Below, piece by piece: positions 931 through 62,672 of a stretch of DNA of 64,000 nt; positions within the stretch are counted from its first letter, which is position 1, and each line of letters starts with the position of its first letter. The translations under genes were made by a program, and so were the position numbers. A model generated the notes under the pieces. It was not told where the DNA came from and made no database searches. It saw only the letters and a list, made by a program, of their open reading frames with translations. Origin of the DNA: Branchiostoma floridae. Taxonomy: Eukaryota; Chordata; Leptocardii; Amphioxiformes; Branchiostomatidae. The stretch covers positions 2,271,643-2,335,642 of the forward strand of contig NC_049985.1 of NCBI RefSeq assembly GCF_000003815.2, in the 5' to 3' direction.

Positions 931-1046
931 CGTCAGTGGCGGGAAACACAAGATGTCAGCTGATGACTAGGTCGTGTGAGGATCTTGCTCCTTATTTTCC
1001 TACTTAATAGCGCAATAGTGCGACATAACCAGCTCATTTTTTCACC

Positions 1047-4000
1047 ATGGCGTCTCCAAGACACCATCTAGTTTCCTACAAAGGCTTTGTTGTAGAATTT
1101 TGCGATGAAGTTGAAAATACGACACTGGAAGGAACTGTGATCCAGGCCAGGGTTTTCAAGATGGACAGGACCACAGGCAAGTTTGTACAAGTATGTGTGG
1201 TTGACAGTCCTGAAGTTGGACAGCTTCACATCATAACAGCTAACTGTGTGTGCGAGGAGAGCACCGGATCCATCCTTCCATGCGTTCTTTTCCGTAACTG
1301 CAAAGGAGACTCTGGCTTTCCTTGTGTGTTCCAAGCAGCTTTTCTGACAATGGATGGGGACGATGCAAAACTCGTGACCGGTCCAGGAATGTCAGCATCA
1401 CACCGCATGTGTCACAGCAACGTCCTAAAGACCTTCCAGCTCCTACCGGGACCTCGGATTGCGTATCGTTACCATGGAGACCTATGCGTCGCCTGCGACA
1501 AACAGAACACAGGAACATTCCAACAGCTGAAGATCGCTACGTCGACCTTCGACCCGCTATGGTGGGGAAAGCTGGGAAGGACACTCGTTGCCATGGGAAC
1601 GGAGGCATGCTCAGCATCACCTGATCACCAGATGGAAACCGAAGAGGAGATGGTCACCGACCTTGACCTCATCTGGGGTCACAAGTGGATGTATGTTGCC
1701 ATGGAAACCAAAGATGAAGAGTGGAAGAAAAGGGACGGTAGCGTCTTCATTCCTCATCCGTATGCATGTGTGGCTAGGGCGATATGCCTGTTAGAATACA
1801 GAGTGATTAAACAGACAATAGATGGGGATAATCCAGAGCAGGAGGATGCTGATGTCCATCAATCACGTGTGCTGTTAGCGACCAATCAGGGGCAGCTGGT
1901 GGAGCTGGAGGATGGGGAGGTGAGGAGGATTTGTGAGCTGCCGTTTCAGGACCCGTCTGACGTGCGTGTGGCGTATGTCAGCGGAGGGGAGACAGTCGTT
2001 CTTGTGACGTCACCCACAGGAGGGGTGTGTGCGGTGTGGGGCAGCAGCTTCAAGGTACGGCTCAGATTTTTGCCGTAACATAAAGAAAAAAAGTATAGAA
2101 AAAGATCTGTCTGATCAGATTTAGTTCTCTGTGTATATCTGAGAGTAGATGTCAGCTCTGATACTTGCTCTATGATAACATCAGTTGGAGCAAATAAAAT
2201 CTACTTAAATGGTACCAAGGCTAATCTAAAGTTCAGCCCTAAAAATGACTAGGTATATAGGACAGTAAATTAGAACAGTAAATGTACTTTGGATGGATTA
2301 GGTGTATGATAAGATAAACAGCCTCTGGAAGTACTTTAAACTTAATGATCCAGAATTTATCTGATGTGTGATAGTTGTTCTTTTGCTCCAGCCCGCAGGC
2401 CACTGGCCATCAGCCCACATGGCCCTGACCGACTATTTCCTGTCCCGTGGGACTCAGCAGGTGCTACTGCTATCTGGGAGTGGGGGAGTCTTTGATGGTT
2501 TCCTTCTCACTGATCTAATGGGCTACAACATTACCGATCAGGTGAACTAGCCGGTGTCTACACAGCTCAACTTTATTTTTGTGATCCCAGTTCCCTTTGA
2601 TTAAAGAAATCCTGTAAAGATTGATTTTTCCATTATCATGTCTGATGTTTAATTTCTAGTCCAGTGTTTGAGTGCGGTTTATTCAGATTCTTATATTGCT
2701 ATATCTTTACCCTTCAATTTTGTTCATCAAGTTGACAGAATGGTCTTACAATATAGTTAAGTAACATTTTTTCAGTCAGAGTGATGATACACAGCAAAAT
2801 TCTATCAAATGACGGAATGACATTAGCTATCTAGAATTCTGATGTGTTGTTTGATAAGATATACAATTGTTTAAGTGTTTGTTGTAACTTTTTCCCTGGT
2901 ACCACTAACAGCAGGAGGAAGCTGAGGAGGAGACAGATGTGTCTACTAGTACAGACAGGAGTGTACCCATGCAGTCAGCTGTGCAGGCCTTACAAGCCAG
3001 GCTATATGTAAGGCTACTCCCTATTATGACAGGATATGAAATAAGTCAAACATTGCGACTGTGTATTAAAAAATGTCAATTCGGACCTCATACGGACTTC
3101 ACATACATTGTTATAGCACCTTTTCCAAGGATTTTAACCTCCTTGCCTTAAATCTTTATGAATACTTAAATCTGGAATACTTTTTTAATGTGTACCTTTT
3201 TATGTGTGTTAATCACAGGAGAGCCAGGCATCCCTGGAGGAGCTGAGGTCCCTGTCAGCTCAGAAGGACAGAGTGATCCAGCAGACCTGCACAGCTCTGA
3301 GAGCCATGGTGCTACAGAGTGGCCACGTTATGGGGCAGGCCGCTCTACCAGAGGATGTAAGCACTCCCTCCTACATGTATATCCTACCTCGCTATACTTT
3401 TGTTCTGTATGGTATAGACTCACTCACTTAATCACTCTCACTCACTCGCTGACTCACTAAGTTCCTCATGCTTGCTCACTCGCTCACTCATTCATTCACT
3501 TAGAAGTTACTCATACTTACACTCAGACACTAACTCTCTTACTCACCAACTCTCTCAGTAACTCACTTACTCACTCTTACTCTCACACTCACTCACTCTC
3601 AGTAACTCTCTCACTCACTCTCTTACTCACCCACTCTCTCAGTAACTCACACTCACTCTCAGTAACTCTCTCACTCACTCTCTTACTCACCCACTCTCTC
3701 AGTAACTCACACTCTCTCAGTAACTCTCTCACTCACTCTCTTACTCACCCACTCTCTCAGTAACTCACTCACTCATACTCTCACACCCACTCACTCTCTT
3801 ACTCTCACACTTACTCTCACTCTCTCAGTAACTCACTGACTCACTCTCTTCCTCTCACTCTCACTTACAGGTGCCATTGTCATGCTGGATAACACTGAAG
3901 GTTTAGGAGGTGAAATCTTCCATTATGCTGTATGTCCTTCTCTTGCAAGGTTGTCCCCATAGACATCATTCATAGCTTGGGAAAATGACAGCTCAGAGAC

Positions 4001-6572
4001 GACAGTATTCTACCAGTTTCGACTTTAATTTGTCTTTCTCAAGAAATCAAGGTTGTCCCCATAGGTTTCGTCCTTCCTTGTTGCTCCATTGACTAATTAC
4101 TTTCCTCTTATTTATTGTGTCCCACTTGCAGCCCTCACTGGTGTGCCTGTACAATGGAAAAGGTTTTCCCCCCAGTCCTGACTTGATGCCCCCCTCCCCA
4201 CCTATGTCGGACCCCATCACCGTTGTACGAGTCTGGCAGAGGCTGGTTCTGAACCAGTGGGTGGTCGGGCTGGAGATCAGCAACCAGTCAGACAGGTGGG
4301 GATCTTAACTTGAAAGTTCATCTGTGTTGGTAGAACTCATTATTGGACTTTAAGTCAAACTATATTGGACTCCAATAGGCAGGGATCTTATGTTCCAATG
4401 GGTCCTTCCTGGTGTGAGTAGTTCAAAACTTACAGACCTATGGCCGCACCTGGGTCAATAACTGTCACCTGAGTTAGTGTCAAATGGCAGCTGCTTTAAG
4501 ACTCTTAAGATTTAGCCCTGCCTATATTAAGCTCCTCGAAATTCAGCCTCTGGCTGCGAGGAGAGAGTAGACAGCCCACCCAATAAGAACAAGCAATGCC
4601 CCTTCATTCTGACACCCCTATGTTAGGGTTAGGGTTAGGGGTAGGGGTAGGGGTAGGGGTAGGGGTAGGGGTAGGGGGTGTGAGAACATCAAGGATTTGG
4701 AACATATGAGTGTAACTAAATAGGGATCTTGTGGTATCAGCATAGGCTATGCAAAATCTATTTAATGGAAGACATCTGCCCATGCATTGATTTTGACCTG
4801 TTTCTGAGATATTTTCTTTCAAGTGACATGCAACAAGAAATCACAGCTGCATTGACATCCATCTAACTTACCTTAAATCAAACAGTTTTCTCTACTGTTT
4901 GAAATAAACTTTCCCACATACAAATGTATTTTCCTTTTTTCCGCAGAACTTTGCAGGACGTACGCCTTGCCCTTGTTAGACACGAGGGTGCTGAAGCTGG
5001 TGCCATGAAGAGTTCAAGATGGAACAATGATAGCACATCTTCATGTAGAGTTGTTTCAACAATCCCTCCCGCAGTAAAACTAGGCTCAGAGACAAGTCAT
5101 CACTTCCAATCCAAGAAACTAAAACTGGACAAAAGTGTGCAACAAGATGTAACAAAACAGAATACTACACTAGTCTGTGTGTCCCCCATACCCAAGTTTG
5201 GTGCCCGCCCATCCTTACAATGTTCTTTACTCCTATCATGGAGAGAAAAAGAAGGGAGAGGTAAAGACAGTGAAGTGGAGTCCAGCTTTAGAGATTTCTG
5301 TCTGGATGTTGGGCATGTGAAGTTGTCCATTGATGACATTACCAACAGACATCTGACTGTGTTTGCGGGGGATGGCAGCAAGACTGGTAAGATCTCGCCT
5401 TTTTTTTTACCTCTTCAGATTCTGTAATCTTTTTCTGTAATTCAGTTTGTCTTTTGATGTTCTTCAGGACCCATCCTCCATCAATACAGAAATTTGCTGC
5501 AGTGGGAAAAATTCACCCCATTGTCAACAAAAAAATCCTAACTGCAAGACATGAAATTGATGAAAGTGTATATTATAAGCTTGAAATAGACATTTTCAAA
5601 AATGTGAATTCACACAACATAGTCTCCCAAAACAATTAGTATGACTAGAGACAGCCCTTGTGTACACATAACTATTCTGTCTGTAATGCCTGTGAAATTT
5701 ACAGAGTAGCATAGAGATGACTAGGTTGTATAAACTCTTTCAAAAACATTTTTTTCACAGCTGACTTACAGAAGACAGACCTGCTGGCCCTCGAAGCTGT
5801 GCAGTCAGAAACAAGGTTAAAGGTGAGATGTAGCCATGGCAACCTCAGGCAGCTGCCTCAGATGTTGCAGAGCAAACTGGGATTCCAGGCTATCCCAGGC
5901 GCCCCTGGACTGTTCTGTGAGCGGCAGGGACCGCTGCAGTATGTGAGAGTCACCTGTACTGTCATCAGCAGAGCAGAGGCTGAGCTATCTGTTTGTACAA
6001 GGTGGGAGGATTTTGTAATTATGATAGCATTCATCTAGGTGTATTATTGCAGCCAGTAGGTTCCCAATCTGACTCTGAGTGTTGAGGCTGTTAAAATACA
6101 GTGGAAGGAGAAGGATGGATTCTGCCTACCAACACTGTTCCCTAGACACGGTGGATAACAACCCACTGCTTTTATAGCCTCAAAAGACTTTCGGACAACC
6201 TTATCACTTGAGTCAGATATACATGTAAATGTCGAATTTTGTTCATCATTATCAGTACATATCCTATAGATGCACGTAGAGGAGCGATTTTGGTTCATTC
6301 ATTGCTTGCCTATGTAACTGCTCAGTTTAAAAGACACTGTGTGAATCACTTTTTTTTCTCTCTCCAGAGACCTGCCCCAGCTGTCTCTTCTACTCCACTC
6401 CCTGTACAGCCTCCTTCCCCGAGGAACAAAAGTCCTCCCTGATCTTCAAGACTCCAACATTAAGGAGGAGGTGGAAAAGTATGTGAAATCTGTGGACACT
6501 GAGCAGCCACACATGGGCAGCAAGCTCAGAACTTTACTACAGTGGGAGGGAGTGGAGAAGGAACAAGAGTGA
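1047..6572 (+). CDS. fancb: FANCB, Fanconi anaemia core complex subunit B
   Basis: FANCB, with FANCL and FAAP100, forms the catalytic module that lets the nuclear Fanconi core complex monoubiquitinate FANCD2/FANCI during crosslink repair. Exons: 1047-2054, 2392-2541, 2912-3007, 3219-3356, 3871-3900, 4132-4295, 4947-5386, 5761-6001, 6368-6572 (stop 6570-6572). All have GT/AG ends and compatible phases, giving about 823 residues (human about 859). Diagnostic FANCB matches are CELPFQDP followed by VCAVWGSSFK at the end of exon 1, GTQQVLLL (about 356-363), VWQRLVLNQWVVGLEIS in exon 6 and LFCERQG (about 726-732). The start ATG lies in CACCATGG. Exon 1 alone encodes 336 residues. The 30-bp exon 3871-3900 has a weak GTTTAG donor, and skipping it keeps the frame (813 residues). 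The right-most introns hold no other gene. Confidence 0.9.
3420..3870. repeat. ACTC/TCTC microsatellite-derived tandem repeat in fancb intron
   Basis: Degenerate (ACTC)n with higher-order units such as CTCTCAGTAACTCACTCACTC repeated every 40-60 bp. It fills the intron between fancb exons 4 and 5 and ends directly at the acceptor of the doubtful 30-bp micro-exon, so length changes here could affect splicing. Confidence 0.85.
4621..4680. repeat. Interstitial telomere-like repeat
   Basis: Three perfect TTAGGG units (4623-4640) are followed by about six GGGGTA variant units to 4676. It lies inside the fancb intron 4296-4946. TTAGGG is the chordate telomere repeat, so this is an interstitial telomeric tract or a simple repeat derived from one. 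Confidence 0.8.
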
Positions 6573-7564: not shown

Positions 7565-7748
7565 TGTTTATGTTTCCAGATATTTGTGGTCAGCATAACT
7601 CAACAATCTCTGGATGGATTCTGATGGTATTTGGCATGTGGGTAGGTAGGTTTGTTTGTGTGTGCATTTGTGTTTCCAGATATTTGTGGTCAGCATAACT
7701 TAAGAACCCCTGAATGGATTCTGATGCTATTTGGTATGCCGGTAGGTC
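7565..7748 (+). repeat. Two tandem copies of a dispersed repeat
   Basis: Two copies about 105 bp apart (about 7572-7640 and 7675-7745) share GATATTTGTGGTCAGCATAA, a CTGGATGGATTCTGATG-like block and a WTTTGGTATG-GTAGGT end. A third diverged copy is at 36468-36545. The family occurs in many invertebrate genomes in my recollection, but I cannot name it. Confidence 0.65.
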
Positions 7749-8915: not shown

Positions 8916-11900
8916 GCCGAACCTGAGCTGTGTGACAGGCAGGTGTCTCTTGTGCATGAGCCAGCCGGAGTCCTCCTGCCAGCTGGCCAGCCCAGAGTCG
9001 CACTTACAAGCTCGGCCTCCGCCACAGGTGCCTGCAAACAATGACAGTTGTACGTTTAAAGCAAACGCAGATTTGTGATCTATTTGGGGAAACCGAATTT
9101 TGCCCAATTTTTCAGACAAACTTTCATGTCGCATTGACAGTGGACCTTAAAAACATTCAATTGATTTGATTCACTCACAAGGGACAGGCTGTCAATAATT
9201 TGGTCATTCTTACTAAGGAAGGTGCTACCAAGAGTTCAGCAAGAGTTAAGATCGAAAGTTTAGACTTATTAAGTTTTATTGCATAAAGATAAATTGGTTT
9301 ATACACATTCATACACATCATTTCTGTTGTGGAAGGCATCTTCTGAAGTAAAGATAACATTTGCCGTAGATGATAAGTATGTATACGGATTCGTTGTCAA
9401 AAAAGACACCAACTACAATATATTATAAAGCTCTATTTCTGTACACAAAGCAGAGTGCTCGCCAATAATCATTCGCATTTTCGATTTTTACAATATCAAT
9501 GGCCATCAAATATGAACTTTCATTCAACATTACCTGCTTCTCCACACGCGCAGTTGTTTGTCCCGGGTTTCCCCCCTCCCCAGTAGTCCTTTCTCCGGCC
9601 GTCAGCTGACAACCACCAGGCGAACCCCGTACTGCCTCTGTGCAGGACCGAGCTCAGGCATTCATACTACAAAGATGAAATATTGCAGGGAATTACTTTG
9701 CATCACACAAAGGTTCAGTTTTGCTAGGGTGTTCTAATGTTATTAATCTCAAATGGTGAAATGTTCCAAACCAAATGCTATTACCTTAGTAGATTAAAGG
9801 CAGTACAAAGAAGAAAATACGGCTTGAAAGTGGGGTAATATTCAAAAGAGTCAGTTTGATTCTGGAAAAACTGATCTCAGTTAATGTCTTTTACAATATT
9901 ACTCGTATCACACCTTCGCCTGGGTACCATCCTAACCCTTGGCTGGGTTCCGCTTTCCGCTTTTGGGGCATGGTCGGGCCCGGGTCCATTCTAACTCGGA
10001 GATAAAATAACCCGGGATCTAATCGTAAGCACATCGACAGGTACCCCAAAGTAATCCGGCAGTCCAACGGGACAAATTTGTGGCTTCGGGGTGGGGCTAC
10101 AGTCCCAACGACCACAGGGGCAAATGTGACCGTAATATTAAGCAAGCAAAAGGGGAGAGCCAACATACAGTAACTACGGACGACGGTACCCAGACTAATC
10201 AAACCTTGCTGTTATGTAAACATTTGTGTAATCTCTTAAGCTGGAGACCAAAGGTCCATGTACGATAGAAACAGAAAACACGCCGCCACCGGTACCTTGA
10301 TGAACTGCATACATCTCTTGGACCTCCTGATGACGGCCCGGATCTGCTCCAGGGACGTCCAGTAGGTGATGTTGCGGAAGTACGACCCGGGCTCCCCGTA
10401 ACCCTCCACCACCGTGCGGGACTCGCTGTCGTGCCCGAAAGACGACGCGACTAAAAACAATCAATACATAATGTTCACATAACGTTACATGTACGAGGTT
10501 ACACCTGCGTTTGGTTCAAGTCTTCAGATAACAGTTTCCCTTGCTGGTCTTAAATACTAATATGATTAACATCGTTCGGGCCTCGTTGTCGTGCCCGAAA
10601 GACGAAGCAACTAAAAACAATCAATACATAATGTTCACATAACGTTACATGTACGAGGTTACACCTGCGTTTGGTTCAAGTCTTCAGATAACAGTTTTCC
10701 TTGCTGGTCTTAAATATGTTTAACATAGTGCGGGCATCGCTGTCGTGCCCGAACGACGACGCAACTGAAAACAAGCAATACATGATATTCACATTCATGT
10801 ACGAGATTACAGATGAGTTTGGTTCAAGTCTTCAGATGACAGGTTTTTATTTTACTCGCAGTTCGTCGACACATTTAGCTAAAATGCCCGAATGTTCAGG
10901 ACACCGGAAACATTCAATGCACAATAAACCATCATCTCATAGTTCTGAGCACAGATGTGGTCTCATATGAGCTCAATTGGCCTAGAACGGAATGAAATCG
11001 TTAGGATAATAAAATACAACGTCCGTCCCTACCTGCATCTCCGACGCGTTCACACTGCACGGGAGTCGGCGGCACGCCCTGTCCCGGGCCGTCAGGGTCT
11101 ATGGAGTAAATCTCTCCCGAACGGAACTCTTTCCCCAACGTCTCGGAAACTTCTGTGCAGCTGGCAGGAAGAACTGGAAGGGAGTAAATGATTTGATACA
11201 TCTTTGGCAGGAATAATTTTCACAATAAATAATTTTACTTTCTTCTGATATCAAATTTCAATTTTGTTAATGTTGAATTTTAATTTTTGTAATGTCGAAC
11301 GCCATTTTACTCAAATTTTAAAGTTTGAAATGCCGAATTTCAAATGATGGGCAGTGCAGTTTAAAGCATTACTTCACATGAAATGTAATAATGATCAAAG
11401 ATGTCCACATAAGCACATATTTGCTAATGTTATGTTATCTTGTTCAGCAAAGGGCGTGCCAGTCAATGTGAATAGAACTAAATCTGAATCTGCAAGTGCG
11501 TGGCTTCATAAAACTCAGAGATAGCAAGATTTAAATGAACACTACTGAAAAATGTTTTTGTCTAATACAATTACCGGTATTGACAAGCTTGTTGGAGAAA
11601 TGCATACGAATGATGAGGACAGCTTTATTGCATGTCAAGAGCTGAATATTAGCCAAAGGTGATCATAAAATGTAGGAAGGTTGGTCCGTCAAAAATGGAT
11701 GCATGAGAGTCCCCACCATGACATGACTGACAGCCTCCCGATGACGTGTTCCACCCCGGTAAGTCCCTGCCCTGCGCCGATGACGCCGGTTCCCCGAGAA
11801 TTCCCGACAGCTTCTGCTGCAGAATCCGCTGCGACCGCTCCATCTCCGAGTTCCTCAGCCTGAGCCCCTCCACCTCGTCCAGCAGCTCGTCCTGGTCGTG

Positions 11901-14900
11901 AAGCTGTCCGTAGAGTTGTTGAAGTTCCTCCCTCAGCTCGCTGGCTGACTTCCCGTCCAGGGCCAACAGGCGCTTCTCTCTGTTTGGGGTTGTGACGCCG
12001 GAATCGTCTTCGCTGTCGTCTTGGTCCTGTACGTCTCTGGGCCCTATGATGCGCGGTGTGGTCGGGCCATGGTCGGGCTTGGAGGGTTTCTTACCCTTCC
12101 GCAGGGTTTCCATTTCCTGAAAAATATAAAAGTGATCGCATATGAAGTCATTGAACAGGTGAGCTAATCTTTCATTGGTCGTGACAGAAAAAAAATAGAC
12201 GTTATGTAACGTATTTATAGATTATCTATCGGGCGAGGTTTTTCTTTCCTTCCTGAGGGTTTCGATTTCCTGTAAAAGAGTAAAAATCATCTCGGACCTG
12301 TTGATCTCAAATTAACTCAATGTTTTGAAATGAATAAATAAATAGATAATTAAGTTGTCCACGGCGTAATGTCCCGTCCTTAGGATTGCTACACTTTCCA
12401 GTAGCGTGAATGCCAGGTGAGCGACAACAGGCGGAAATCGAACTCACGACCATTGGTCCAGAGGCAGGGTCTCTAACCACTGGGCTATGCTCCCAACGTG
12501 GTAGCATGACATTTCGGCGTAAGGGCAGTTTGGCCTCTAGCCGAACAGGACGATTCGGCACTGGATCCAGGAAGACTCGGGTTATAGTTAGGATTAGGGT
12601 TGAGTTAAGGCGTCCTCTTGACAGTCCTAGGGCTGATGCCGCATCGTCCTGATCGAGTAGAGGCCGACCTGTCCACGACCCGAAAGGTCGGACAATCACG
12701 AGACGCTTATTCCTATTTTCCCCTAACTATCGCAGAGTGGAATTTGTCATCACCAAGCACAGCAAGGGCATCTTCGCTAGATAGTTTTAAAGAACGCTTG
12801 AAGATAGATGGGCAAAAGTTGCGTCTGATAGGTCGTTCAGTGCAAAACAACCAGAAGCTGGCGTGTTATTCAAAAGGTCGGTGCTAGATGACAAAACAAA
12901 GACGACAGAAAAAGGCCACGTTTATTCCTATCAACTTCTGCTTGGAGAGTAGGTTATAACAGCTATATTGATATAGATACGCGCATATGTACCTTTAGAA
13001 GCGCCTGGTTCTGCTGCTGAAGCCGCTTGACCTCGTCCCACAGCATGTTGGTGGGGCGGCTCTCCAGCGCCAGCACCCGCTGCTCCATGACGTGATGCGT
13101 GCTCTGCAGGAACTCGTTCTGCCGCCGCAGCTGCTGAACCATCTCCTGAACACCCTGCTGGTCCAAGACCTGCAGAAACAGACAAGGTTCACTTTACTCC
13201 TGAACCATCTCCCTAACACCTGCGGAAACAGACAAGGTTCCCTTTACTCCTGTCCTGAACCATCTCCTGAACACCTGCAGAAACAGACAAGCTTCACTTT
13301 ACTCCTGAACCATCTCCTGAACACCCTGCTGATCCAACACCTGTGGAAACAGACAGGGTTCACATTACTCCTGAACCGTCTCCTGAACACCCTGCTGGTC
13401 TAAAACCTGCGGAAACAGACAAGCTTCACTTTACTCCTGAACCATCTCCTGAACACCTGCTGAAACAGACAAGCTTCACTTTACTACTACTGAACCATCT
13501 CCTGAACACCTGCAGAAACAGACAAGCTTCACTTTACTCCTGAACCATCTCCTGAACACCCTGCTGGTCCAACACCTGCAGCGAAAGACAGGTTTCACTT
13601 TACTCTCAAGGGCAGACACGACTATTTCTCTTGAACCATCTCCTGTACACCCTGTCTGTCTTACATACACCTGCAACAACAGGCAAGGTTCATTTTACTC
13701 TGAATCATTTGAATAACGATATCATCTACAGCAAGATACAAGGTTTCACTTTAAGAAGAGACAAGGCTATGTTTTTATCATTGAATGAATGTGTGAATGT
13801 ATGAATAAGTGAATGAGGATAAAGTGATAAATTTTCTGTGGCATATATAAAGTTGATTTAGACTCTCGAGTGTCTGTTTGTAAGTGGCAAAACACAACAA
13901 GATTAGATGCATTTTTTATTATAACAATGGTTAGGTCTTACTAATTAAGAAAATGTTAGAATTGTGGGACTCCTTTAAAACTGTGTCTGTTTTTTCGTTT
14001 GTCTGTTGGTTGTCTGTATTGCATACACGAATCAAGGCGTAATATATACTATGTAATGTTATGTGTATGTGTACCAATGTGATGTATATGTTTTAATGTA
14101 TGACCCCAGGAAGAATAGTGGATGCACATGTGTATTCACTAATGGGTGTCATTTTAACAATAAACAATATATCAGATTTGTACAGAATAGCACAAGCTCC
14201 GGACAGCTTTATTTCATCCACTCACACCGGGATGGATCCCTATCGTTTTCGAGTGGTAGGTGTGGCTCTCCTCAAGCACGGGACCTCCATTTAATTTCCT
14301 ATTCGAGTGACATTCTTAGCCTAGGTTTGGTACTCATTTCCACCTGAGTGGAAAATTAGTATATTTCCCAAGGGCACAGCATGTCAGGAGATTGAACCCA
14401 GAACCTCTGGGTCCAGGACTAGCACTCTAATCGCTACGCCTGCAAACAATATTTAGCTGTAAGTAGCTCTGAATGATTATGTTCCAAGTTTAAATATGTT
14501 GAAAGCATTCGTGTACAATGATTCCATGAAGAGTAGAGGTGTAAGTTGCTAATCGAGATCAAAACAAAGAAATAAACAAACAAATAAGATATAAGAATGA
14601 GTTATACCTTATTACATATATCCTTTATTAACCTTAATGTGCATTCCCGTAATGTTTAAAAGTGCAGTTCTGAGCCCAGTAAGTGATTCTAAGAATTTTA
14701 AATGTATCATCCATTGTAAGCAGCAGAAGAATTCATTGTCCCTACAGGGAACCCTGCCATTTTCTTCCGTTCCATTAGAAATAAGATCCATCATTAAATA
14801 TCTAAAGCGTATGACACATCCACTATTGGATACCTAACGTGTATTACACAACGCAATCAGACATGCCTATCTTGTGGAGATGAAATTCAATGCGTAAAAT

Positions 14901-17900
14901 TGAATTGTACATTTATTTCAGCGGAACAGATGAATGAATGACATTAAATATATTGCCTTGCATTCTGTGAATACATTGATATCTGATAAGTGTGATAACA
15001 CTTACATGCAAATGAATGTTGTGGAGTCATGTTAAAAACTTTTAGATTCCGTGGAAAAATTTGATACAACCAGGATATTCAGAAACAACTAAATGTCCGT
15101 CGAGAGTCAGCGCCAGTCCCAATGGCAATGGACGGTCCAGTCCGTGTTCCTCCCGTGTCAGCACGTGCCTGATAAACGTGCCGTCCCGACTGAACACGGA
15201 AACACGAAAGTTTTTAAAGTCAGCCACGATGATGTTGTCCTCGCCGTCCGTGATGACAGACCAGGGGCTGTACAGCTGACCAGGTTCCGAGCCACGTGAC
15301 CCGCACGTGAAGAGATAACGACCGGTGGGGTCAAATATCTTCAAGTTGTTGTTGTCACAGTCATTGACGATGATTTGGTTGCTGCTGTTGACGGTCACGC
15401 GGAGATAGGAACCCAGCTGCTGCTGACCTTGACCTTTATCCCCGAACTTCAGCATGACGTCACCGCTGGGACTAAGTACGAAAACTTGGTGCTCGATAGT
15501 GACGATGACGCGTCCCAAACCGTCAACAGCAACACCACGTGTAGCGCCTCCTCTCTGTGCAGCCCCTGTCACCTGGATGACACGTGACTCCCTCCCCTGT
15601 TTGTCCAGTACGTGAATCCTGTGTCCGTCCCCTGTCACCAACAGCTCACCGTTTGTCAGTGCCGCCACATACAACGGCTTGAACCTTAGGTCGACCTTCC
15701 TCTTGAAGGAGCCATCTTTGTCTAGAAATTGCAGGCGCAAGTTGCTATAATCAGCCACAACAATGTCTCCCTCTGCGGTGACAGCGAGCGAGCTCGGAAA
15801 GGCAAACTGTCCAACTCCACAGCCCTTCTTACCAACAGTTTTCACGTGTTTTAGACTCGAGCCGCCATTCCCGATCACCACGTTTGGTCGCACTTGCGTG
15901 ATTTTTTGCGGTGAGCACAAAGGTGTTTTCACCTGGTTTATTCCACCTACAAGTCTAGCTACTTCCTGCTCCAGTTCTCCGGTTGGTGGGTCAAAGGTCA
16001 AGTTCACAAAGTTCTTGGGAAGTTCAGACTTCTCAGTGTTTTTGTACTCCGCGGTTTGATCCAACCGTCCGGTCAGTTCTCCGGCCACCGACATGAGCTC
16101 CGCCGGGCTCCCGTACTCCAACACGTTGTCCGTGAACTGGACACAGCTCCTGGCTGAGGCCAGGTCCATCTCAGCTGCCTCCATGGCGGCTTCCATCTGT
16201 TTCTCCCGAGCAGCGTTCATGGCGCGAAGCTGAACGATTCTGTCGTTTCCCACCTTCTTCGCGGCCTCGATGATCGAGTTGACTTGTTTTCTGATCTGTT
16301 CTTCTGTTCGCTGTACCTGTGCAGACCACTCGTCCTTCACTGACTGCAACTCTTCTATCCACTTCTCACGCAGGTCTGCTGTGTTCTTGACTGTCGCAAG
16401 TTTTGCCTTGACCTTTGCCCCCTCCCTCTCGGCCGCCTTCTCTATCTCCACATACTGGTGATCTTTGTGCGCCGTGACCACACAGTGCAGACAGATGACC
16501 CGGTGGCAGGTGTCACAGTAGAACTTGTTCAGTTCATGGTGATCCTCACACTTGGAGGTCTCCCTTGCCCGGAGCTCGGCGGCAGCCTTGCCGGATTGGA
16601 GGTCTTGAACTTTGTGGGACCGATTAGCTTTGAAGCGTCCGTGCATATCGTTACACGTCTGACACAGGTAGTCAGTACACTCCAAGCAGTAGAACTGAGC
16701 CTTGTTGCCTACCTCACATACCGTACAGGGGATTCCATCCTCCGGCGCCTCGGAAATTTCCCCTTTCGGCTGTTGTTGTAGAATGTCGCGCAGTTTGCCA
16801 ACGAGGAAGTTGGACTTCAGCTCTTGGACGCCATTTCTGGGCAGTGGCACGTCCTGTCGGCATGTTGGACAGTCCAGTTTCCCTACCGGCTCTGTGGCCA
16901 GGAGCTTCTCCAAACACGGCTGGCAGAAGGTGTGAAGACACGGCAGCATCTTAGGCTGCTTGAAGTCCTCCAAACACACCTGGCAGACGAGAAATTCGTC
17001 TGTTATATCGCTGATCGCGTTCGACGCCATTGTCACTAAGCACTGAATGTTGACATTGGCACGCCCACTGAAACTTTAGAAGGGGTCACAGTAAAACGCT
17101 TTGAGCGTTCGACCTTATCAATTATGTTTACCTTCTATTCACACTTTAGGTCGTTCCATTCCATAAGTTTGGAGGGGTGCAGACCCACTGTCGATACGAC
17201 GCAAAGAGATACGATAATAAGGCAAGCAACATATAGCCTATAGGGATGAAAGGGTAATCGTAAGTTGTGTCGAGTTGTCGGAAGGTTGACCAGAATTTCC
17301 CTGGGTTCAAGGGGAAAGTCCTGACGGCCTTTGGGAACACCTTGTGATATCGCGTGGCGTAATCGGCAGCGCTTTGGGCTCAGACCTAAGAGGTCTTGGG
17401 TTCGAAACCTGCCATTGTGATTTAACTAGTACGAGGAGTACTGTACGAGTTTGTCTTCTAGTGAAAAATGTGATAGCACCCCTCTATTGCATTAACTCAT
17501 TAGTTAGAATAAATTTGTGTCTATCATTGAAAAAGGTAATAGCATCCATCTATAACATTAATTCACGAAAAAGAGGGGAAAGTTGGTTCTACTAGTGAAA
17601 GAATGTGATAGCACCACTCTACCACCTTAATTCACTAGTGAGAGTAAAAGGTCTGATCTAAATTAATTCTTGAAATAATGAGATACCATTGTGACAACCA
17701 TTGTCACGTGTAAAAGTAGCTAACATGGTTTTCAACTGAAAAACTTTTTGAACTAAAATAATGAGATAAATAGACCACTACCGGGTCAGTAAATTAATGT
17801 AAGGGAAGGGTGTTATCACATTTTTCACTACTAGACACAGATTTAGACCAGATGTATACCTTTTACTAGTGAATTAGTGTGATAGCACCCATTATCACAT

Positions 17901-20900
17901 TAAGTCACTAGGTAAGTGGAAAAAACTGCATCTACTAGTGAAAAATGTGATGGCACTCCTCTATCACATTAATTCACAAGTGAGAGAGGGAAAGTGTTGC
18001 TACTAGTGACAAAAATGTGATAGCACCCCTCTATCACATTAATTCACTAGTAAGAGAAAAACTGTGTCTACTAGTGAAAAATGTGATAGCACCCCTCTAT
18101 CACATTAATTCACTAGTATACGTAAGAGAAAAACTGCATACTAGCGAAAAATGTGATAGCACCCCTCTATCACATTAATTCACTAGTAAGAGGAAAAGTG
18201 TGTCTACTAGTGAAAAATGTGATAGCACTCCTCTATCACATTAATTCACAATTAAGAGGAAAAAGTGTTGCTACTAGTGACAAAAATGTGATAGCACTCC
18301 TCGGTACATTAATTCACTAGTAAGAGAAAAAACTGTGTCTACTAGAGAAAAATTCAATAGTAAAAGGAAAACATCTGATCTCATCAAGCAGAACGTAAGA
18401 TATTGCATTAATTTAAAGACACCACAGAGCAGAGTCTAAACTATTAACATTATAAAGCCTGTCATCGTCATCTCAAGTCACCATTCTGTAATCTTTATGA
18501 ACAACCAAAAACAGAATGGTACAGAAAGGTTAAAAAAGGTATGAAACATAGTTCTACATCAAGTATAATGCATAGCGTATAAAGTCCTCATCAAATATGT
18601 GCAAGCTACTCGTGCTGCATGATAATCTGTTGTATGGGGAAGGTTCAACTTAACGGAGTGCTGGATAGCATGAAGGATTCATGTACGTGTAATCTAACAT
18701 TGCACAAGTATCTAAAATTCCATGACCTGATACCTGGTTACTGAATCCTTTATTGACCTTTTTAGTACTCTTTGCTTGATGTATTGGACTTTTTCTAATA
18801 AAATGAGACAAGAGTCCATTTGTGGTACTGCACACCACGATAAAATTGACTAAACTTTAAACGCTAATATCTCGAAAACAAAACATTAGATTTGAACGCG
18901 GTTTTAACCTAACTCATTAGTTAGGGTTAACAATGTGCCTTTTTCTAGGAGTGGGTGGGGAGGGGGTCTAGGAGAGATGGTTTCTAACGGGCTTGGCTTG
19001 CCTTCCTGGCTATTGGTGAACGTTTTTCGCAGTTTAGCAGAATTTTCGAATTGATAGGAAGTATGAATTTTTCTGTCGCATAGAACAAATACATGAAACA
19101 CAGCAATGAATGAAAGAACACTTTCGGCGTCCCTAAAACAATCATTATTGACCATCATACTGAAGCATGTTTTCTCAAACTTTAATATTAAAAGTCTTTT
19201 GGTCTTTGTTGGATATACAATATTTACAAATAAAGTGCATTGTACAGTGGTTCATAGAGAGATACTTTGTTCTTGTGGAGATTGAAGTTAAAAGGTAAAA
19301 TGTAACTGTATCATAGCGGCACACATGGATGCATGGCGTTATATATTGTCTTCGGTGCTTTAGAAAAATGTTTAACGCTTTGGATGAATTGATGTCATTA
19401 ATATCTGTTCGCTTAGATTGAAAAATTGTATTAGTGATTTGATAAGTGAAGATCAAACTGGTTATTTGAAAAACAGATTCATTGGAGAGAATATACGAAG
19501 AATTTTAGAATTAATTGAATATTATGACACTAACGAAAAACCAGGACTGATCTTTATTGCCGATTTCGAGAAGGCATTTGATAGCCTAAGATGGGATTAT
19601 ATGTTTAAAGTTTTGAACTATTTTGGCTTTGGGGAATCTCTTATTAAATGGATTTCGGTTTTATACAACAATATTTCTAGTAAAGTAATAAACAATGGAC
19701 ATATTTCTGACGCCTTTCCTCTTCTCCGTGGTGTTCGACAGGGGTGTCCCCTCTCCCCCTACTTGTTTATTTTATGTGTAGAATTATTAGCCACAAAAAT
19801 CAGGACCAACGAACACATAAAAGGACTTAAGATACACACTCTGGAAACCAAGGTCTCACAGTTTGCTGATGATTCTAATTTTCCTCTGCAACCCGAAGCA
19901 CAATCTCTAGTAGCCCTCGTTGAAGATTTAAAGAATTTTTCAATAATTTCTGGCTTAAAACCGAACTTTGACAAATGTACGATTTTAAGAATAGGCTCTT
20001 TAAAAAACACAACTTTTTCTCTCCCTTGTGATCTTCCTATCAAATGGACTAATGGCCCTGTACAACTTCTAGGGATTATGCTGGGTTTAGGCACAACTGG
20101 TTATACCGAAAAATTAGATCAGAATTACTGGACAAAACTAGCTAAGATAGACAAGATCTTGCTCCCCTGGAGAGGACATTCCTTAACACTTTTTGGTAAA
20201 ATTGCCTTGGTGAACTCTCTAATAGTATCACAATTTACATATCTATTCATGGCTTTACCTTCTCCTAGCGCCAAGTTCTTTAAGGAGTATGAGAAAAAGA
20301 TATTCAATTTCATTTGGAATGGGCGCCCAGAAAAGATTAAACGCAAGGTTATATATAACACCTATGACTGTGGTGGTCTGAAATTAATACACTTACCCAC
20401 TTTTGATCTCACTCGTAAGGCATCGTGGATACCTAGACTATGGCAAGCAAAAACACCTTTAAGTAAATACTTGACTGATTTCCCAGATCCTGTATGTAAA
20501 CTTTACCCTTTCTTGCAATTATCTAAATATCATATAGACTGTATTTTCACTAAGTTTTCTCGGTCTGTTAGTCCTTTCTTCATCAATGCCCTTAAAGCAT
20601 GGCTTTCCTTCCAATTTAAGCCACCTGAAACACACCAGGACATACAATCACAGCTTTTATGGCTCAACTCAAATATTACTATAGACAGCAAGCCTATTCA
20701 CTTTAGAAAGCAAGCTACTGGTCAAATATTATTTATAAGTGACCTTTTAGATACAAATGGAAAATTTTTGTCATATAAGGAATTATCGCTGAAATTTGGG
20801 AAAACTCTTCAAATGATGGAATATAATCAAATAATCTCCGCTATCCCAAGCACCTGGAAAAGACATCTTAAGGATAAACCACTTACTATAGGACCTAATG

Positions 20901-23900
20901 CACCCTTCATATCAAACTATTCCTGGTTGGGGGCACGTAAGATAAATAAAGATATATACATGACAACTCTTTTGACAAATAACGTAGTCCAAACCCCAGT
21001 TAAAATCCAAACATATTGGGAAGAAATACTTGACATAATAATACCATGGAAACAAGTTTATAGACTGATATACAAGACTACAATATGTCCGAGACTAAGA
21101 TTTTTCCAATTTAGGATGTTACATAAATTTCTACCTACCAGAAAAATGTTATATATTTGGAAACTCTCGGACAGCCCTATTTGCATACACTGTGGAAATG
21201 AGCAAGAAGATACACTGCATCTATTTTGGGAATGTCCAAGAGTTTCCCAATTTTGGAGAGATGTCAAGAAATGGCACGAACGAGTATCGAGTGAACCATT
21301 ACACATAGATTTAGCAAGTGTAATTTTGGGTGATCTAACAGTAAATTCCCCTAGGCTGAACAATACACTAATATTAATGGCAAAATTTTTTATTTACAAA
21401 CAGCAAGAAAAACACCTATCATTAAACCATTTTATCTCATATATTAAGACTTCTTACAAATTGGGATTTATAATAGCTTCCAGAAAGAACAAATTGGCAG
21501 TTCACTACAGTAAATGGGGAGAAATACTTCACATCATTTCTTAAACCCCTCTATTTTCTTTTTGTCTTTTGCTACTCTTGTGGTTTTGCATTATTCAATT
21601 ATTTTCACTAGTATTTGAAGCGAAATGTTGTATTGATGGTTTCTTATGTGTCTGTACTTTATTTGAGATTATTCTTGTTTAAAGTTTACCATTAATTTAC
21701 ACTGATGTTACTTTTCTTATGTAAACGATACTACCTTATACTACTGTATTAGTTTATTTGGTTGGTATTATTTTCTTCCCGCTGTAGTATTGTTATCTAT
21801 TTTTGGATCCGTGGTTTATGTTTATGTTTTGTCTCAGTTATTGTCTCCATCTCTATTGTCATTATGTATTCTTCTGTTATTTCTGTTTATTTGAAATGCA
21901 ATAAATATTAAAAAAAAAAAAATCTGTTCGGTACAATAAGCGGTACATGCAGTAGTAGAACTAGAAGGATGTTGTGAAGTTGTTCGAAAAACGTTATTTT
22001 CCGTGGAAAAATATAATAGAATGAGTACATTCAGAAACGACCAAATGTCCGTCGTGAGTCAGCGCCAGTCCCAATGGACCGCACAGTCCGTGTTCCTCCC
22101 GTGTCAGCACGTGCCTGATAAACGTGCCGTTCCGACTGAACACGGAAACACGCCAGTTGTTACAGTCAGCCACGATGATTTTGTCCTCGCTGTCCGTGAT
22201 GACACATTCGGGCTTGTTGAGCTGACCAGGTCCCGAGCCGAGTGACCCGCACGTGAAAAGATGACGACCGGCGGGGTCAAATACCTTCACGTTGTGGTTG
22301 TCATAGTCACTGACGATGATTTGGTTGCTGCTGTTGACGGTAACGCGGAGGTCGGAACTCAGCTGCTGCTGACCTTGACCTTTGTATCCGAATTTCAGCA
22401 TGACGTCACCGCCGGGACTGAGTACAAGAACTTGGTACCCGATAGTGACGATGATGCGTCCCAAACCGTCAACAGCGACACCGAGTGTAGTTTCATCTGT
22501 CTCTGCAGCCCCTGTCACCTGGATGACACGTGACTCCCTCCCCTGTTTGTCCAGTACGTGAATCTTGTGTCCGTCTCCTGTCACCAACAGTTCACCGTTT
22601 GTCAGTGCCGCCACAGACCACGGCTTGAACCCCAGATCGACCTTCTTCTTGAAAGAGCCACCTTTGTTCAGAAATTGCAGCCGTGAGTTTTCATTATCAG
22701 TTACTACAATGTCTCCCTCTGCGGTGACTGCGAGATAGTCTAACTGCCCATCCCCACTGCCCTCTTCCCCAACAGTTTTCACGTGTTTTACACTCGCACC
22801 GCCATTCCCGATCACCACGTTCGGTTGCACCTGCCTGATTTGAGGTGGACGCAAAGGTGTTCTCACCTGTTTTATCCCACTTACAAGTTTAGCTACTTCC
22901 TGCTCTAGGTCACCAGCTGGTGGGTCTAAGGTCAAGGTCACAAAGTTCTCGGTCAGTTCAGATTTCACGGTGTTCTTGTCTTCCCCGGTTTGGTCCAACC
23001 GTCCGGCCAGTTCTCCTGCCACCGACATGAGCTCCGCCGGGCTCCCGTACTCCAACACGTTGTCCGTGAACTGGACACAGCTCCTGGCTGAGGCCAGGTC
23101 CATCTCAGCTGTCTCCATGGCGGCTTCCATCTGTTTCTCCCGAGCAACGTTCATGGCGCGAAGCTGAGCGATTCTGTCGTTTCCCACCTTCTTCGCGGTA
23201 TCGATGATCGAGTTGACTTGTTTTCTGATCTGTTCTTCTGTCCGCTGTACCTCTGAAGACCACACGTTCTTCACTAACTGCAGCTGCTGTATCCACATCT
23301 CATGCAGGTCTGCTGTGTTCTTGACTGTCGCCAGTTTTGCCTTGATCTTTGCTCCCTCCCTCTCGGCCGCCTTCTCTATCTCCACATACTGGTGATCTTT
23401 GTGCGCCGTGACCACACAGTGCAGACAGATGACCCGGTGACAGGTATCACAGTGGAACTTGTTCAGTTCACGGTGATCCTCACACTTGGAGGTCTCCCTT
23501 GCTCTTAGCTCGGCGGCAGCTTGGCCGGATTGCAGGTCTTGAAGTGTTACAACTTTGTGGGACTTGGTCACTTGAAGCCGACGATGGGTGCCGTTACATG
23601 TCTGACACAAATAGTTGGTACACACCACACAGTAGAACTGAGCCGAGTTCCCGACCTCACAGGCCGTACATGGGACTCCTTCCTCCCGCGCCTTGGAAGT
23701 ACTAGTTGCCCCTTTCGGCTGTTGTTGCAGAATGTCGCGCAGTTTGCCAACGAGGAAGTTGGACTTCAGACCCTTCACGCCATTTTCTGGGAGGGGCACG
23801 TCCTGTCGGCATGTTGGACAGTCCAGTTTCCCTAAAGGCTCTGTGGCCAGGAGCTTCTCCAAACACGGCTGGCAGAAGGTGTGAAGACACGACAGCATCT

Positions 23901-26900
23901 TAGGCTGCTTGAAGTCCTCCAAACACACCTGGCAGACGAGAAATTCGTCTGTTATATCGCTGATCGTGTTCGACGCCATTTTTACCAAGTACTGTATATT
24001 GACTCTGTCACGCCCACTAAAGCTTTGCAAAGGGTCACAATGCAAAGCTTTGGTCGCTTATCATTAATATTTACCAGGTTATGAACTTTTGTCGCTTTTG
24101 GACGATCCATTTCAGGCGTTTTGAGGGGTACAGTCCGTGCAGACCCACTGCTGACACGACGCAAAGGGATACGATGCATTGATAAGGCAGGCAAGATTGA
24201 CCGAAGGCCGTCGACACCGGCTAAGCCAGGGAAATATTGACTTCGGCACACCCACTGAAACTTTGGAGAGGGTCACAGTGTGAAACTTTGAGCGCGTATC
24301 ATTGGTGTTTACTATGTTATATGGCTTCAGGACGTTCAATTACAGGCGTTTACAAGGGTTCAGGATGTTTCAAAGTACGCCGTGTACAGAATAGTACAGT
24401 CAGGTTAAGAAAGGTATGGAAAAAACATCGTTCTACATCAGGTACTATGCATAGCGTATAAGTCTTCATCAAATATGTGCAAGCTACTAGTACTGTATTA
24501 TAATCTGTGTAGGTGAAAATCCAACTTAACGGTGTGCTGCATAGCGTGAAGGATTCATGTACATGTAATCTAACATTGCACAAGTAACTAAAATTCCATA
24601 ACCTAATAACTGATTACTGAATCCTTTATTGACCTTTTAGTACTCTTTGCTAGATGTATTGGGCTATTTCTAATACAAGAAGAGAAAAGTGTCCATTTAT
24701 AATACAGCACACCACGATGAAATTGACTAAACTTTAAACACTCATATCTCGCCAACAAGGCACTAGATATGAACGCGGTTTTCACCAAATAACTTCGTAT
24801 TAGTTAGTTTTAACAATGTGCCTTTTTCTAGGAGTGGATGGGGAGGGGTATAGAAGGGGCGGTTGCTAACGGGCGTGGCTTGCCTAGTGACCATCCTCGC
24901 TACCAAGTTACTGGCTATTGGTGAACGTTGTTCCAAAGTAGAATTGATTGAAAATTATGAATTCTTCTGTCGTGTAGAACTGATATATGAAACATTACAG
25001 TATATGTAAGAACATTTCATGTGTATCTGAAACAAGCCTTTATTGAACAAAATTTTAGATTATTGTAAATGCAGAAACTTTCGCGGTGGATTAATGCTCG
25101 CGGTTTTCGCAGCGGCCGCTTCACCGTGAATTTAAAACCACTGCGAACATTTATCCATAACAGTAAGAGACTACAATGTATGGTGCTACCACGAAATTAA
25201 TACCACCGCAAAAAAGTCCATTTCCCCGCTACCGCGAACTTAAATCTCCGCGAACTTAAATGCATTTACAGTATTTTTCAATCTTGTCATCGTTAATTTT
25301 ACATGTGGAGTCAAATACAGAGGATTTAAACTAAGACGGGGTTTTAAAGTGTATTTGAAAGCAATATTGCAAATATATACGAGGGCAACCTTTTTCATCT
25401 TTATTACGATAAAGATTACAATAGGGATAATTTTTTGTCTTTGTTGGATACAGCATATGTACAAATGACGAGCATAATACAATGATTTATAGAGACATAC
25501 TTTGTTCTTTTGGAGATTGAATTTGAAGTGTAAAATTGTATCTCAGCGGCACAGAAGAATGGATTACATTGTGTATTGTCTTGCATGCTTAAGAACAAAG
25601 ATAAAAGGCCTGTGATTACATTGATTTTTGCACAATAACACATGTAATAGAAGGATGCGGAAAGCAGTTAAAAACTTTATTTTCCGCGGAAAAATTTTAT
25701 ACAACCAGGAAATTCAGAAACAACAAAATGCCCGTCGTGGGTCAGCGCCAGTCCCAATGGACGGTACAGTCCGTGTTCCTTCCGTGTCAGCACGTGCCTG
25801 ATAAACGTGCCGTCCCGACTGAACATGGAAACACGATCGTTGCCAAAGTCAGCCACGATGATGTTGTCCTCGCTGTCCGTTATGACAGTCTCGGGGTTTT
25901 CCAGCTGACCAGGTCCCCGGCCATGTGACCCGCATGTGAAGAGATGACGACCGGTGGGGTCAAATACCTTCACGTTGTGGTTGCTATAGTCACTGACGAT
26001 GATTTGGTTGCTGCTGTTGACGGTCACGCGGAGATAGGAACCCAGCTGCTGCTGACCTTGACCTTTATCCCCGAACTTCAGCATGACGTCACCGCTGGGA
26101 CTAAGTACGAAAACTCGGTGCTCGATAGTGACGATGATGCGTCCCAAACCGTCATCAGCAACACCACGTGTAGCGCCTCCTCTCTGTGCAGCCCCTGTCA
26201 CCTGGATGACACGTGACTCCCTCCCCTGTTTGTCCAGTACGTGAATCCTGTGTCCGTCTCCTGTCACCAACAGCTCACCGTTTGTCAGTGCCGCTACATA
26301 CACTGGCACGAATCGCAGATTGACCTTCTTCTTGAAGGAGCCATCTTTGTCCAGAAATTGCAGGCGTTTGTTGCAACAATCAGTCACTACAATGTCTCCC
26401 TCCGCAGTAACGGCGAGCGAGGTCGGGAAGTAAAACTGTCCAGCCCCACTGCCCTTCTTCCCAACAGTTTTCACGTGTTTTAGACTCGCGCCACCATTCC
26501 CGATCACCACGTCCAGTCGCACCTGCGTGATGTGAGGTGAGCACAAAGGTGTTCTCACCTGCCTTTTTATCCCACCCCGGAGGGCGACGGCAGCCTGGCC
26601 GGATTGCAGGTCTTGAATGGTTACAACTCGGTGGGACTTGGTCGCTTGAAGCCGACTGTGGGTGTAGTTACATTTCCGACACAGGTAGTCGGTACACTGC
26701 ACACAGTAGAACTGAGCCGAGTTCCCGACCTCACAGGCCGTACAGGGGACTCCATCCTCCCTCGCCTCGGAAGTTTTCCCTTTCGGCTGTTGTTGTGGCT
26801 TTTGTTGCAGAATGTCGCGCAGTTTGCCAACGAGGAAGTTGAACTTCAGCCCCTGAACGCCATTTCTGGGCAGTGGCACGTCCTGTCGGCATGTTGGACA

Positions 26901-29900
26901 GGCCAGTTTCCCTACCGGCTCTGTGGCCAGGAGCTTCTCCAAACACGGCTGGCAGAAGGTGTGAAGACACGACAGCATCCTAGGCTGTCTGAAGTCCTCC
27001 AAACACACCTGGCAGACGAGAAACTCGTCGGTAATGTCGCTGATCGCGTTCGACGCCATTGTGAACAAGTACTGAATATTGACTTGTCGCCTTAGGACGA
27101 TCCATTTCAGGTGTTTGGAGGGGTGCAATCCCATTTTAATACAACGCAATGGAAGACGGTGCATTGATAAGGCATGCAAGATTGGCCCAAGGTCGACGTT
27201 GACACCGGCTAAGCCAGGGAAATATTGACTTCGGCACACCCACTGAAACTTTGGAGAGGGTCAAAGTGTAAGACTTTGAGTGCTTATCATTGATGTTTAC
27301 CATGTTAGGTCGCTTCAGGGCATTCAATTAGAAGCGTTTGTAGGGGTTCAGGATGTTTTAAAATACGCCACAAAGGGATAGGATAAAAAGATAAAAGGTT
27401 GTTCGTAAGCTGTGTCAAAGTTGTCCCAAGATTGACACTGGCTTAACCAGTGTATACCAAGGATCCAGAGGAGATTCCTAACGGCCACTATGAGCACTAC
27501 AATCGCTTGGACAGTCAGTCTGCTCCGGGGAGTTTTCCTGTATGGTACAGGGTCGAACTCGCTGTACTAGTAGAAGACCTTATGAGAGTCCTTGTTCTTT
27601 TCTGTTGTGTCAATAAAGTTTACTTCTTTTTGGTAGGATCGCGGGGAAAATATTCTTGAGCGAAACAAAAGTATGAAACATGCGTTAAGGAGAACATTTA
27701 ATGCTCACTACAGCCGCCTATCCCGTCAGTCTGCCCTGGGGATTTTTCCTGTATCTCAAGTTAAGTTCTGCTTCCTTTACTTATGCCTATTTACATACCT
27801 TGTACAGGACATTATAAAAGTCCTCGTTTTGTCCTTTTGTGTCAATAATGTTTACTTCTTTTTGGTAGAATCGCAAGGAAAGTATTATTGCGAACTTCCT
27901 GTTTCCCAAGTTAAGTTCTACTTCCCTTACTTATGCCTATTTACATACCTTGTTATTGATGGTTAAATCATTGAACACGCCTTTGTGTACCTTCACTTGC
28001 AGAAGACCTTATGAAAAGTCCCTTTTCTGTTTTTTTCGTTATGTCAATAAAGTTAAGTTCTGTTTGGTAGAATCGCGAAAATTTTTGTCTCGTGCTGAAC
28101 AGAGGTATGAAACATTAAGATAAAGAACACTTAATGAGTTGTCACATACATTCTTCATTGACTATAATGTAAGTGTATTTTGATGTATTGAACCGCTTTT
28201 GACTAGAATGAAACAAAGTTCCTTTGCACTGCTTCACATGACAATGCAGTTCACAGGAAGCAAATCACATATCATCAAGTAGAACGCAAGATAACGCATA
28301 AATTTCAAGACATCGCAGAGTCTAAAACATACTGAATATCAATACAAACCATCCAGGCATTCTTGAGTTATTCTGTTCTTCTACATACATACATACGTAC
28401 AAACAAACGCTACCCAAAATATAACCTTCTCGGCGAAGGTAACAACTAACATCAGAAAGCCTGCCATCGGCATCTGAAGTCACCATTCTGTAATATTCAT
28501 GAGCAAACATAACAGAATGGTACAGAAAGGTTTAAAAAGGATGAAATAAAACATCGTTCTACGCCGAGTACAACATTGTGTAAAGTATAGAGTCCCTTTA
28601 AAATTTGCGAAAACTCCACCATCATAATCTGCTGTAGGTGGCACGTTCAACTTAACGGTGTGCTGGGTAGCATGAACTACCCATATACATGTAATCTAAC
28701 ATTGCACAAGTAACTAAAATTCCATAACCTGATAACTGGTTACTGAATCCTTTATTGACCTTTTAGTACTCTTTGCTAGATGTATTGGGCTATTTCTAAT
28801 ACAAGAAGAGAAAAGGGTCCATTTATAATACTGCACACCACGATGAAATTGACTAAACTTTAAACACTCATATCTCGCCAACAAGGCACCAGGTATGAAC
28901 GCGGTTTTCACCAAATAACTTCGTATTAGTTAGTTTTAACAATGTGCCTTTTTCTAGGAGTGGATGGGGAGGGGTATAGGAGGGACGGTTGCTAACGGGC
29001 GTGGCTTGCCTAGTGACCATCCTCGCTACCAAGTTACTGGCTATTGGTGAACGTTGTTCCAAAGTAGAATTGATTGAAAATTATGAATTCTTCTGTCGTG
29101 TAGAACTGATATATGAAACATTACAGTATATGTAAGAACATTTCATGTGTATCTGAAACAAGCCTTTATTGAACAAAATTTTAGAATTATTTTTCAATCT
29201 TGTTATCGTTAATTTTACATGTGCAGTCAAAATACAGAGGGTTAAAACTAAGAAGGGGTTTTAAAATGTATTTGAAAGCAATATTGATAATGCAAAGATT
29301 ACAATAAAGATAATCTTTTGTCTTTGTTGGATACAAAATATGTACAAATGACGAGCAAAATACAATGATCTATAGAGACATTCTGTATTCTTGTGGAGAT
29401 TGAATTTGAAGTGTAAAATTGTATCTCAGCGGTACAGAAGAATGGATTACATTATGTATTGTCTTGCATGCTTAAGAACATAGATAAAAAGCCTGTGAAT
29501 ATATTGATTTCTGTACAATAACACTTACATGTAATAGAAGGATACGGAGAGCAGTTAAAAACTTTAATTTCCGCGGAAAAATTTTATACAACCAGGAAAT
29601 TCAGAAACAACAAAATGTCCGTCGTGAGTCAGCGCCAGTCCAATTGGACAATACAGCCCGTGTTCCTCCCGTGTCAGCACGTGCCTGATAAACGTGCCGT
29701 CCCGACTGAACACGGAAACACGATGGTTGTTGCCACAGTCAGCTACGAAGATGTTGTCCTCACTGTCCGTTATGACAGTCTCTGAGTTTTCCAGCTGACC
29801 AGGTCCCCGGCCATGTGACCCGCATGTGAAGAGATGACGACCGGCGGGGTCAAATATCTTCACGTTGTGGTTGCTATAGTCACTGACGATGATTTGGTTG

Positions 29901-62637: not shown

Positions 62638-62672
62638 GGGCCAAGTGTCGCAAAATTAAACATATACATAGA

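Follow-up and report, generated by a model that had tools for sequence, protein, structure and literature searches.

Nine tandem copies of a splice acceptor boundary upstream of an amphioxus coiled-coil exon: a probable minisatellite of the mirage type

Within a window of 64,000 nucleotides of Branchiostoma floridae DNA (contig NC_049985.1), one exon of a coiled-coil gene is preceded by nine tandem copies of its own acceptor boundary. The array is real, lies well above chance and belongs to a kind of repeat already described in lancelets. It is very probably a minisatellite of the amphioxus mirage type, formed as one intron/exon boundary was duplicated in tandem again and again, and largely neutral. 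With about nine acceptor copies ahead of a single exon, and most of them scoring as well as the real acceptor, the array is a natural test of splice-site choice among near-equals. The array and the exons that bear on its reading are as follows.

Positions 13170 to 13755, minus strand: mirage array of nine tandem copies, each an acceptor with 20-40 exon-like bases, at spacings of 50-95 bases and with a decayed outer end.
Positions 13371 to 13605, minus strand: four units forming a higher-order block, of which the following block, ending in the real exon, is a duplicate.
Positions 12993 to 13169, minus strand: the coiled-coil exon CC1, probably real, of 177 nt and 59 codons, in phase 0 at both ends.
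Positions 36113 to 36283, minus strand: the paralogous upstream coiled-coil exon CC0, in the same phase as CC1.

Exon CC1 has an open frame, an acceptor TTGTCTGTTTCTGCAG|G and a donor AAG|GTACAT, and is probably a real exon. Comparison of CC0 with CC1 gave 24 identities and a score of 88, against a best score of 28 in 2000 shuffles, and this paralogy is evidence that the real acceptor is the one at 13170/13169. Both the acceptor AG (13171-13170) and the exon end (12993) lie where a preliminary description of the region had placed them. The intron between CC0 and CC1 would be about 23 kb long if no exon has been missed between them, and several long frames lie in it.

Positions 15045-17075, 21997-24057, 25680-27260 and 29567-31624, minus strand: four long frames that resemble one another, all inside the presumed 23-kb intron; Pfam identifies the first as TRIM-NHL, and the three others were assigned by eye.
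Positions 19388-21541: a reverse-transcriptase-like frame in the same presumed intron, named by eye.

Searches with the coiled-coil gene gave no Pfam family above the cut-off and no convincing PDB match; its first exon is, we presume, reminiscent of angiopoietins.

The repetition of acceptor and exon start upstream of exon 13169-12993, which the preliminary description had noticed, is confirmed. A 20-base core, GTGTTCAGGAGATGGTTCAG, has nine matches with up to three mismatches on the minus strand between 13134 and 13650, representing the real exon and eight copies, compared with 0.01 expected, and none of 100 shuffles reached nine. Nine upstream copies of the boundary are placed on the minus strand from 13725 to 13219, with exon-like starts at 13725, 13670, 13575, 13509, 13456, 13406, 13340, 13274 and 13219 (a 132-base piece being divided at 13340 in this list), followed by the real exon at 13169. 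They are spaced by 50, 53, 55, 66 or 95 bases. Each unit consists of a polypyrimidine tract and AG, exon-like bases, and a GAGTAAAGTGAA-like joint that connects it to the following copy; the copied span amounts to about 30 intron and 20-40 exon-like bases, and most copies have AG|GT at the boundary. There are 36 exon bases in units 13575, 13406 and 13340, and 20 after a 16-base deletion in units 13509, 13456, 13274 and 13219, while the diverged units 13725 and 13670 have 26 and 40 exon-like bases, respectively. The preliminary description gave 20-35 exon bp per unit, and to this it should be added that four units are without 16 of the exon bases; the donor-like sequence said to end each unit takes the exact form GAGTAAAGTG in five of nine.

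The outer end of the array has decayed. Over intron and exon parts combined, the two outermost units, 13725 and 13670, are the poorest matches to the real boundary, and the intron part of unit 13575 (22 of 27 matching) is no better than theirs. Unit 13725 is the weakest, recognized by its acceptor and by alignment only, with no match either in the GTGTTCAGGAGATGGTTCAG search at up to three mismatches or in the score-limited copy search; a first count of eight to nine units becomes nine, the outermost poorly recognizable. The decayed end runs slightly past the limit first given as 13745, to about 13755 as set by eye. A single 9-base microhomology, between ATGATTCAG of the intron and ATGGTTCAG of the exon, was considered as the origin of the array and dropped, because the surrounding stretch, 13725-13700, is itself a decayed unit.

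Tandem Repeats Finder (TRF) gave periods of 50 and 66 within the array and a higher-order period of 235 (13134-13605, 90% matches). The duplication of the four-unit block is seen in a gapped BLAST alignment with 90% identity over 240 positions; an ungapped comparison of the two blocks agrees at only 135 of 235, because a small indel separates them. A change in copy number of the array is plausible, given this block duplication and the variation of published mirages from one haplotype to another.

The preliminary description saw acceptor, mini-exon and donor combined in every unit, so that each could be used as a cassette adding short peptides or stops to the protein. Its observation was right and its interpretation is doubtful. 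The acceptors score well: with a matrix built from 16 acceptors of this window, eight of the nine copies score 6.4-9.3 and the ninth (13725) below 4, compared with 9.3 for the real acceptor and a range of -13.6 to 12.4 for 17 real acceptors of the window (leave-one-out). A splice signal in many units, here eight of nine acceptors, is also a feature of amphioxus mirages. Usable donors are another matter. On a donor matrix derived from 15 known exons of the window, the GAGTAAAG (GTAA) sites are poor in all nine units (-0.4 to -3.6), whereas 14 of the 15 known donors score at least 3.2 and one scores -0.6 (leave-one-out). A human-type donor matrix gave 1.2-1.9 for the nine GTAA sites versus 1.9-12.5 for the 15 known donors. 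The GTGAA site, five bases downstream of GTAA, is also weak (-0.3 to 1.5). Judged by score only, neither type provides a usable donor after each mini-exon, both lying below 14 of the 15 known donors of the window. The motif CAG|GTGT at the copied acceptors scores 2.6-4.7, above GAGTAAAG and within reach of weak known donors.

Spacing also speaks against cassettes: a mini-intron that began at a GTAA site would reach the following acceptor after 28 bases in nine of nine cases, or after 23 with GTGAA. The evidence from frame is mixed. Counts covering single units and acceptor-GTAA pairs show that GTAA donors leave one single-unit cassette in nine (13274 to 13248, 27 nt) and three of 45 acceptor-donor pairs open and in frame; the same holds for four of seven single units when GTGAA is the donor (13670, 13509, 13456 and 13219), so that the frame argument against cassettes is weaker than the donor argument. 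The 16-base deletion in four units shifts the frame, so that units differ in it and no sign of a preserved peptide is seen. Reading in phase 0 from the decoy acceptors reaches a stop after 6-74 codons in all nine cases; stops would thus follow if the acceptors were used and translation continued. Given the poor donor scores and the spacing, cassettes appear unlikely, and we allow them a very small chance; nothing in the sequence indicates that the copies are used as exons.

Copied splice boundaries are found elsewhere in the window, notably in the PFAS gene. Its exon starting at 57155 matches phosphoribosylformylglycinamidine synthase 9n9w_A with an E of 9.6e-26, and its frame 49299-49613 was tested against GATase_5 (Pfam); the remaining exons, assigned by eye, presumably belong to the same gene. 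The other boundary-spanning copies are listed here.

Positions 57156 to 58088, minus strand: mirage preceding the PFAS exon that begins at 57155, with nine copies found, seven of them spanning the boundary.
Positions 53745 to 54089, minus strand: mirage before the PFAS exon starting at 53744, with two copies.
Positions 10451 to 10846, minus strand: mirage before the coiled-coil gene exon starting at 10450, with two copies of a 160-base unit.
Positions 52821 to 53069, minus strand: acceptor boundary copied ahead of the PFAS exon that begins at 52820.
Positions 51891 to 51963, minus strand: a copied acceptor boundary, that of the PFAS exon beginning at 51706.
Positions 12241 to 12291, minus strand: copy of the acceptor boundary of the coiled-coil gene exon starting at 12116, the weakest case (81% over 52).
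Positions about 36002 to 35940, minus strand: donor-side copy of the end of CC0 and its donor, 92% identical, spanning the boundary, about 158 bases downstream.

These cases bear on the suggestion that the repeats were produced by the assembly, through collapsed or wrongly joined haplotypes. One globin mirage was apparently misassembled in a genome draft, as the legend of Additional file 4 of PMC3087553 has it. Against such an origin here, the units differ by substitutions and by 3, 5 and 16 bases in length, and the outer ones have decayed, which is not expected from a joining error, and copies are also present at seven other boundaries. An artefact is thus barely conceivable.

Boundaries were set by hand, without transcripts, in three genes. 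For each, 100 bases were used, and a copy within 3 kb that spanned the boundary was required. The set comprised 13 acceptors and 12 donors of PFAS, six and five of the coiled-coil gene, and seven and seven of a plus-strand gene at 1029-6570, the first frame of which gave no Pfam match; excluded from the outset, as uncertain, were the donor of exon 12116, possible exons near 3873 and 5468, and the open frame at 53394. Spanning copies were found at seven of 17 acceptors and none of 15 donors in the first set (p 0.008). The plus-strand gene added none at its seven acceptors or seven donors, bringing the totals to 7/24 versus 0/22 (p 0.010), and two further coiled-coil exons added 0/2 acceptors and 1/2 donors. 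The final totals are seven of 26 acceptors, the 13169 array included, versus one of 24 donors (p 0.05). All seven acceptor cases are confined to two genes, and four of the 13 tested PFAS acceptors have tandem copies of their own boundary.

As controls, copies were found at 57 of 399 random positions of the window, 42 of 350 positions in intron interiors and none of 13 exon midpoints, and comparison of acceptor windows with unrelated regions gave no copies in 174; these results show that the copies are real and local. Acceptors differed from the intron interior, where control positions may fall inside the same arrays, with p values of 0.003 (n=17), 0.026 (n=24) and 0.06 (n=26). The 26 acceptors compared with random window positions gave p 0.09, donors showed no difference from random or intron positions (p 0.24 and p 0.34), and all boundaries together (8/50) compared with the intron interior (42/350) gave p 0.49. 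A hot spot at acceptors, or a polarity confined to acceptors, is not established, significance having faded as boundaries were added (final p 0.05-0.09).

In the seven acceptor cases, the copied stretches reach into the exon and stop there, at +30 to +93. Of 22 spanning copies, 21 retain the acceptor AG: 18 as aligned and three corrected by eye, their AG having been misplaced in the alignments because of the 16-base deletion. It is truly lost in one copy, at 57394. For the other base pairs nearby, retention is 41-100%, in most cases about three quarters of the copies. Retention of the AG may be a faint hint of constraint, in a test that is weak because the copies are related and not independent.

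The window contains several further features of note. On the plus strand, a long simple array of CTCTCAGTAACTC-like sequence occupies 3418-3870 and runs up to CTTACAG, which resembles an acceptor and precedes a possible exon. At 7567-7747, also on the plus strand, nearly two copies of a 100-base unit have TTTCCAG at one end and GGTAGG at the other, and the unit resembles a duplicated small exon with both splice sites. A 66-base tandem unit with about seven copies and inverted ACTAGTGAA/TTCACTAGT motifs occupies 17864-18353, where there is no exon of the tested set, and tandem arrays of 163 and 48 bases at 35158-35742 and 62666-62873 are likewise tied to none. On the strand opposite to the neighbouring PFAS gene, 61189-62634 (plus) encodes a rhodopsin-type GPCR in a single open frame (Pfam 7tm_1, E 7.1e-23).

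The quality of the copied acceptors raises the question of whether they could act as decoys. Copies might compete with the real acceptor, the stop-bearing RNA would be degraded, and copy number would tune the output of the gene. Consistent with this are the scores of eight of the nine decoys, close to that of the real acceptor, the stops that follow all nine, and the retention of most AGs; use of a decoy acceptor in the absence of a donor would waste transcripts. Set against it, AG retention is a weak test in related copies, and the available text of PMC3087553 and PMC3902484 has splicing reported, or thought, to be undisturbed by mirages. Such a brake has, in our view, a small chance of being right. 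That intact decoys renewed from the exon form a splicing brake of variable copy number, and that acceptors are also a favoured target of duplication in this genome, would be very unlikely.

A minisatellite grown from one splice boundary remains the best explanation. New copies may arise at the exon, with slippage or unequal exchange as the mechanism. Selection would keep the template intact there, and the copies would be pushed up the intron and decay. The real acceptor would be chosen because it alone is directly joined to a full exon with its donor. Array copies, being intronic, would be removed together with the intron, and a copy used as an acceptor would lead to a stop codon and most likely to decayed mRNA, so that the array would be largely neutral and need no function. 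Tandem copies are about equally common in introns (42/350) and at boundaries (8/50), which fits a process blind to splicing. The CAG|GTGT scores of 2.6-4.7, the four of seven in-frame GTGAA cassettes and the AG retention in 21 of 22 copies are counterpoints to this explanation.

What stands out is the number of copied boundaries in one 64-kb window. Were the density of 8/50 representative of the whole genome, mirages would be frequent in this lineage and would steadily supply raw material for new introns. This would go well beyond the single-gene cases in the available text of PMC3087553 and PMC3902484; the part of PMC5703972 available does not mention mirages.

The present array has the anatomy of published amphioxus mirages: its tandem units are of minisatellite size and span an intron/exon boundary of a gene, the exon being backed by a paralogous one. 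In the available text of PMC3087553, the BflGb6 globin mirage copies the 3' end of an intron and the 5' part of an exon in units of 150-160 bp, a donor-side mirage is described for BflGb9, globin haplotypes have six and three units, and RT-PCR suggests undisturbed splicing; data for Adh also suggest normal splicing with mirages (PMC3087553, PMC3902484). The globin cases resemble the present one in their minisatellite-like duplication of a boundary, splice signals in many units, and cluster ends outside homogenization, and differ in the gene and in unit length, here 50-95 bases. The Adh3 mirages of Canestro et al. (2002) have units of 10-72 bp, as cited in PMC3087553, and show somatic and length variation, as cited there and in PMC3902484; they also span boundaries, and their size range covers most of the present units. 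Unlike the globin genes, with their haplotype variation and RT-PCR, and unlike Adh3, the present array is read from one haplotype's sequence alone. PGBD5 and TnC were added as lancelet cases in PMC3902484, which in its available part describes tandem repeats of 60 and 108 bp over the 5' and 3' splice sites of lancelet PGBD5. These likewise lie over splice sites, the 108 bp repeat being a triplication compared with about nine copies here. Finally, the model of Rogers, as discussed in the available text of PMC3087553, holds that introns can be gained by tandem duplication of AG/GT. The present array differs in giving no sign that a copy became a used splice site, and is similar in that most of its copies carry AG|GT and would offer raw material for new introns.
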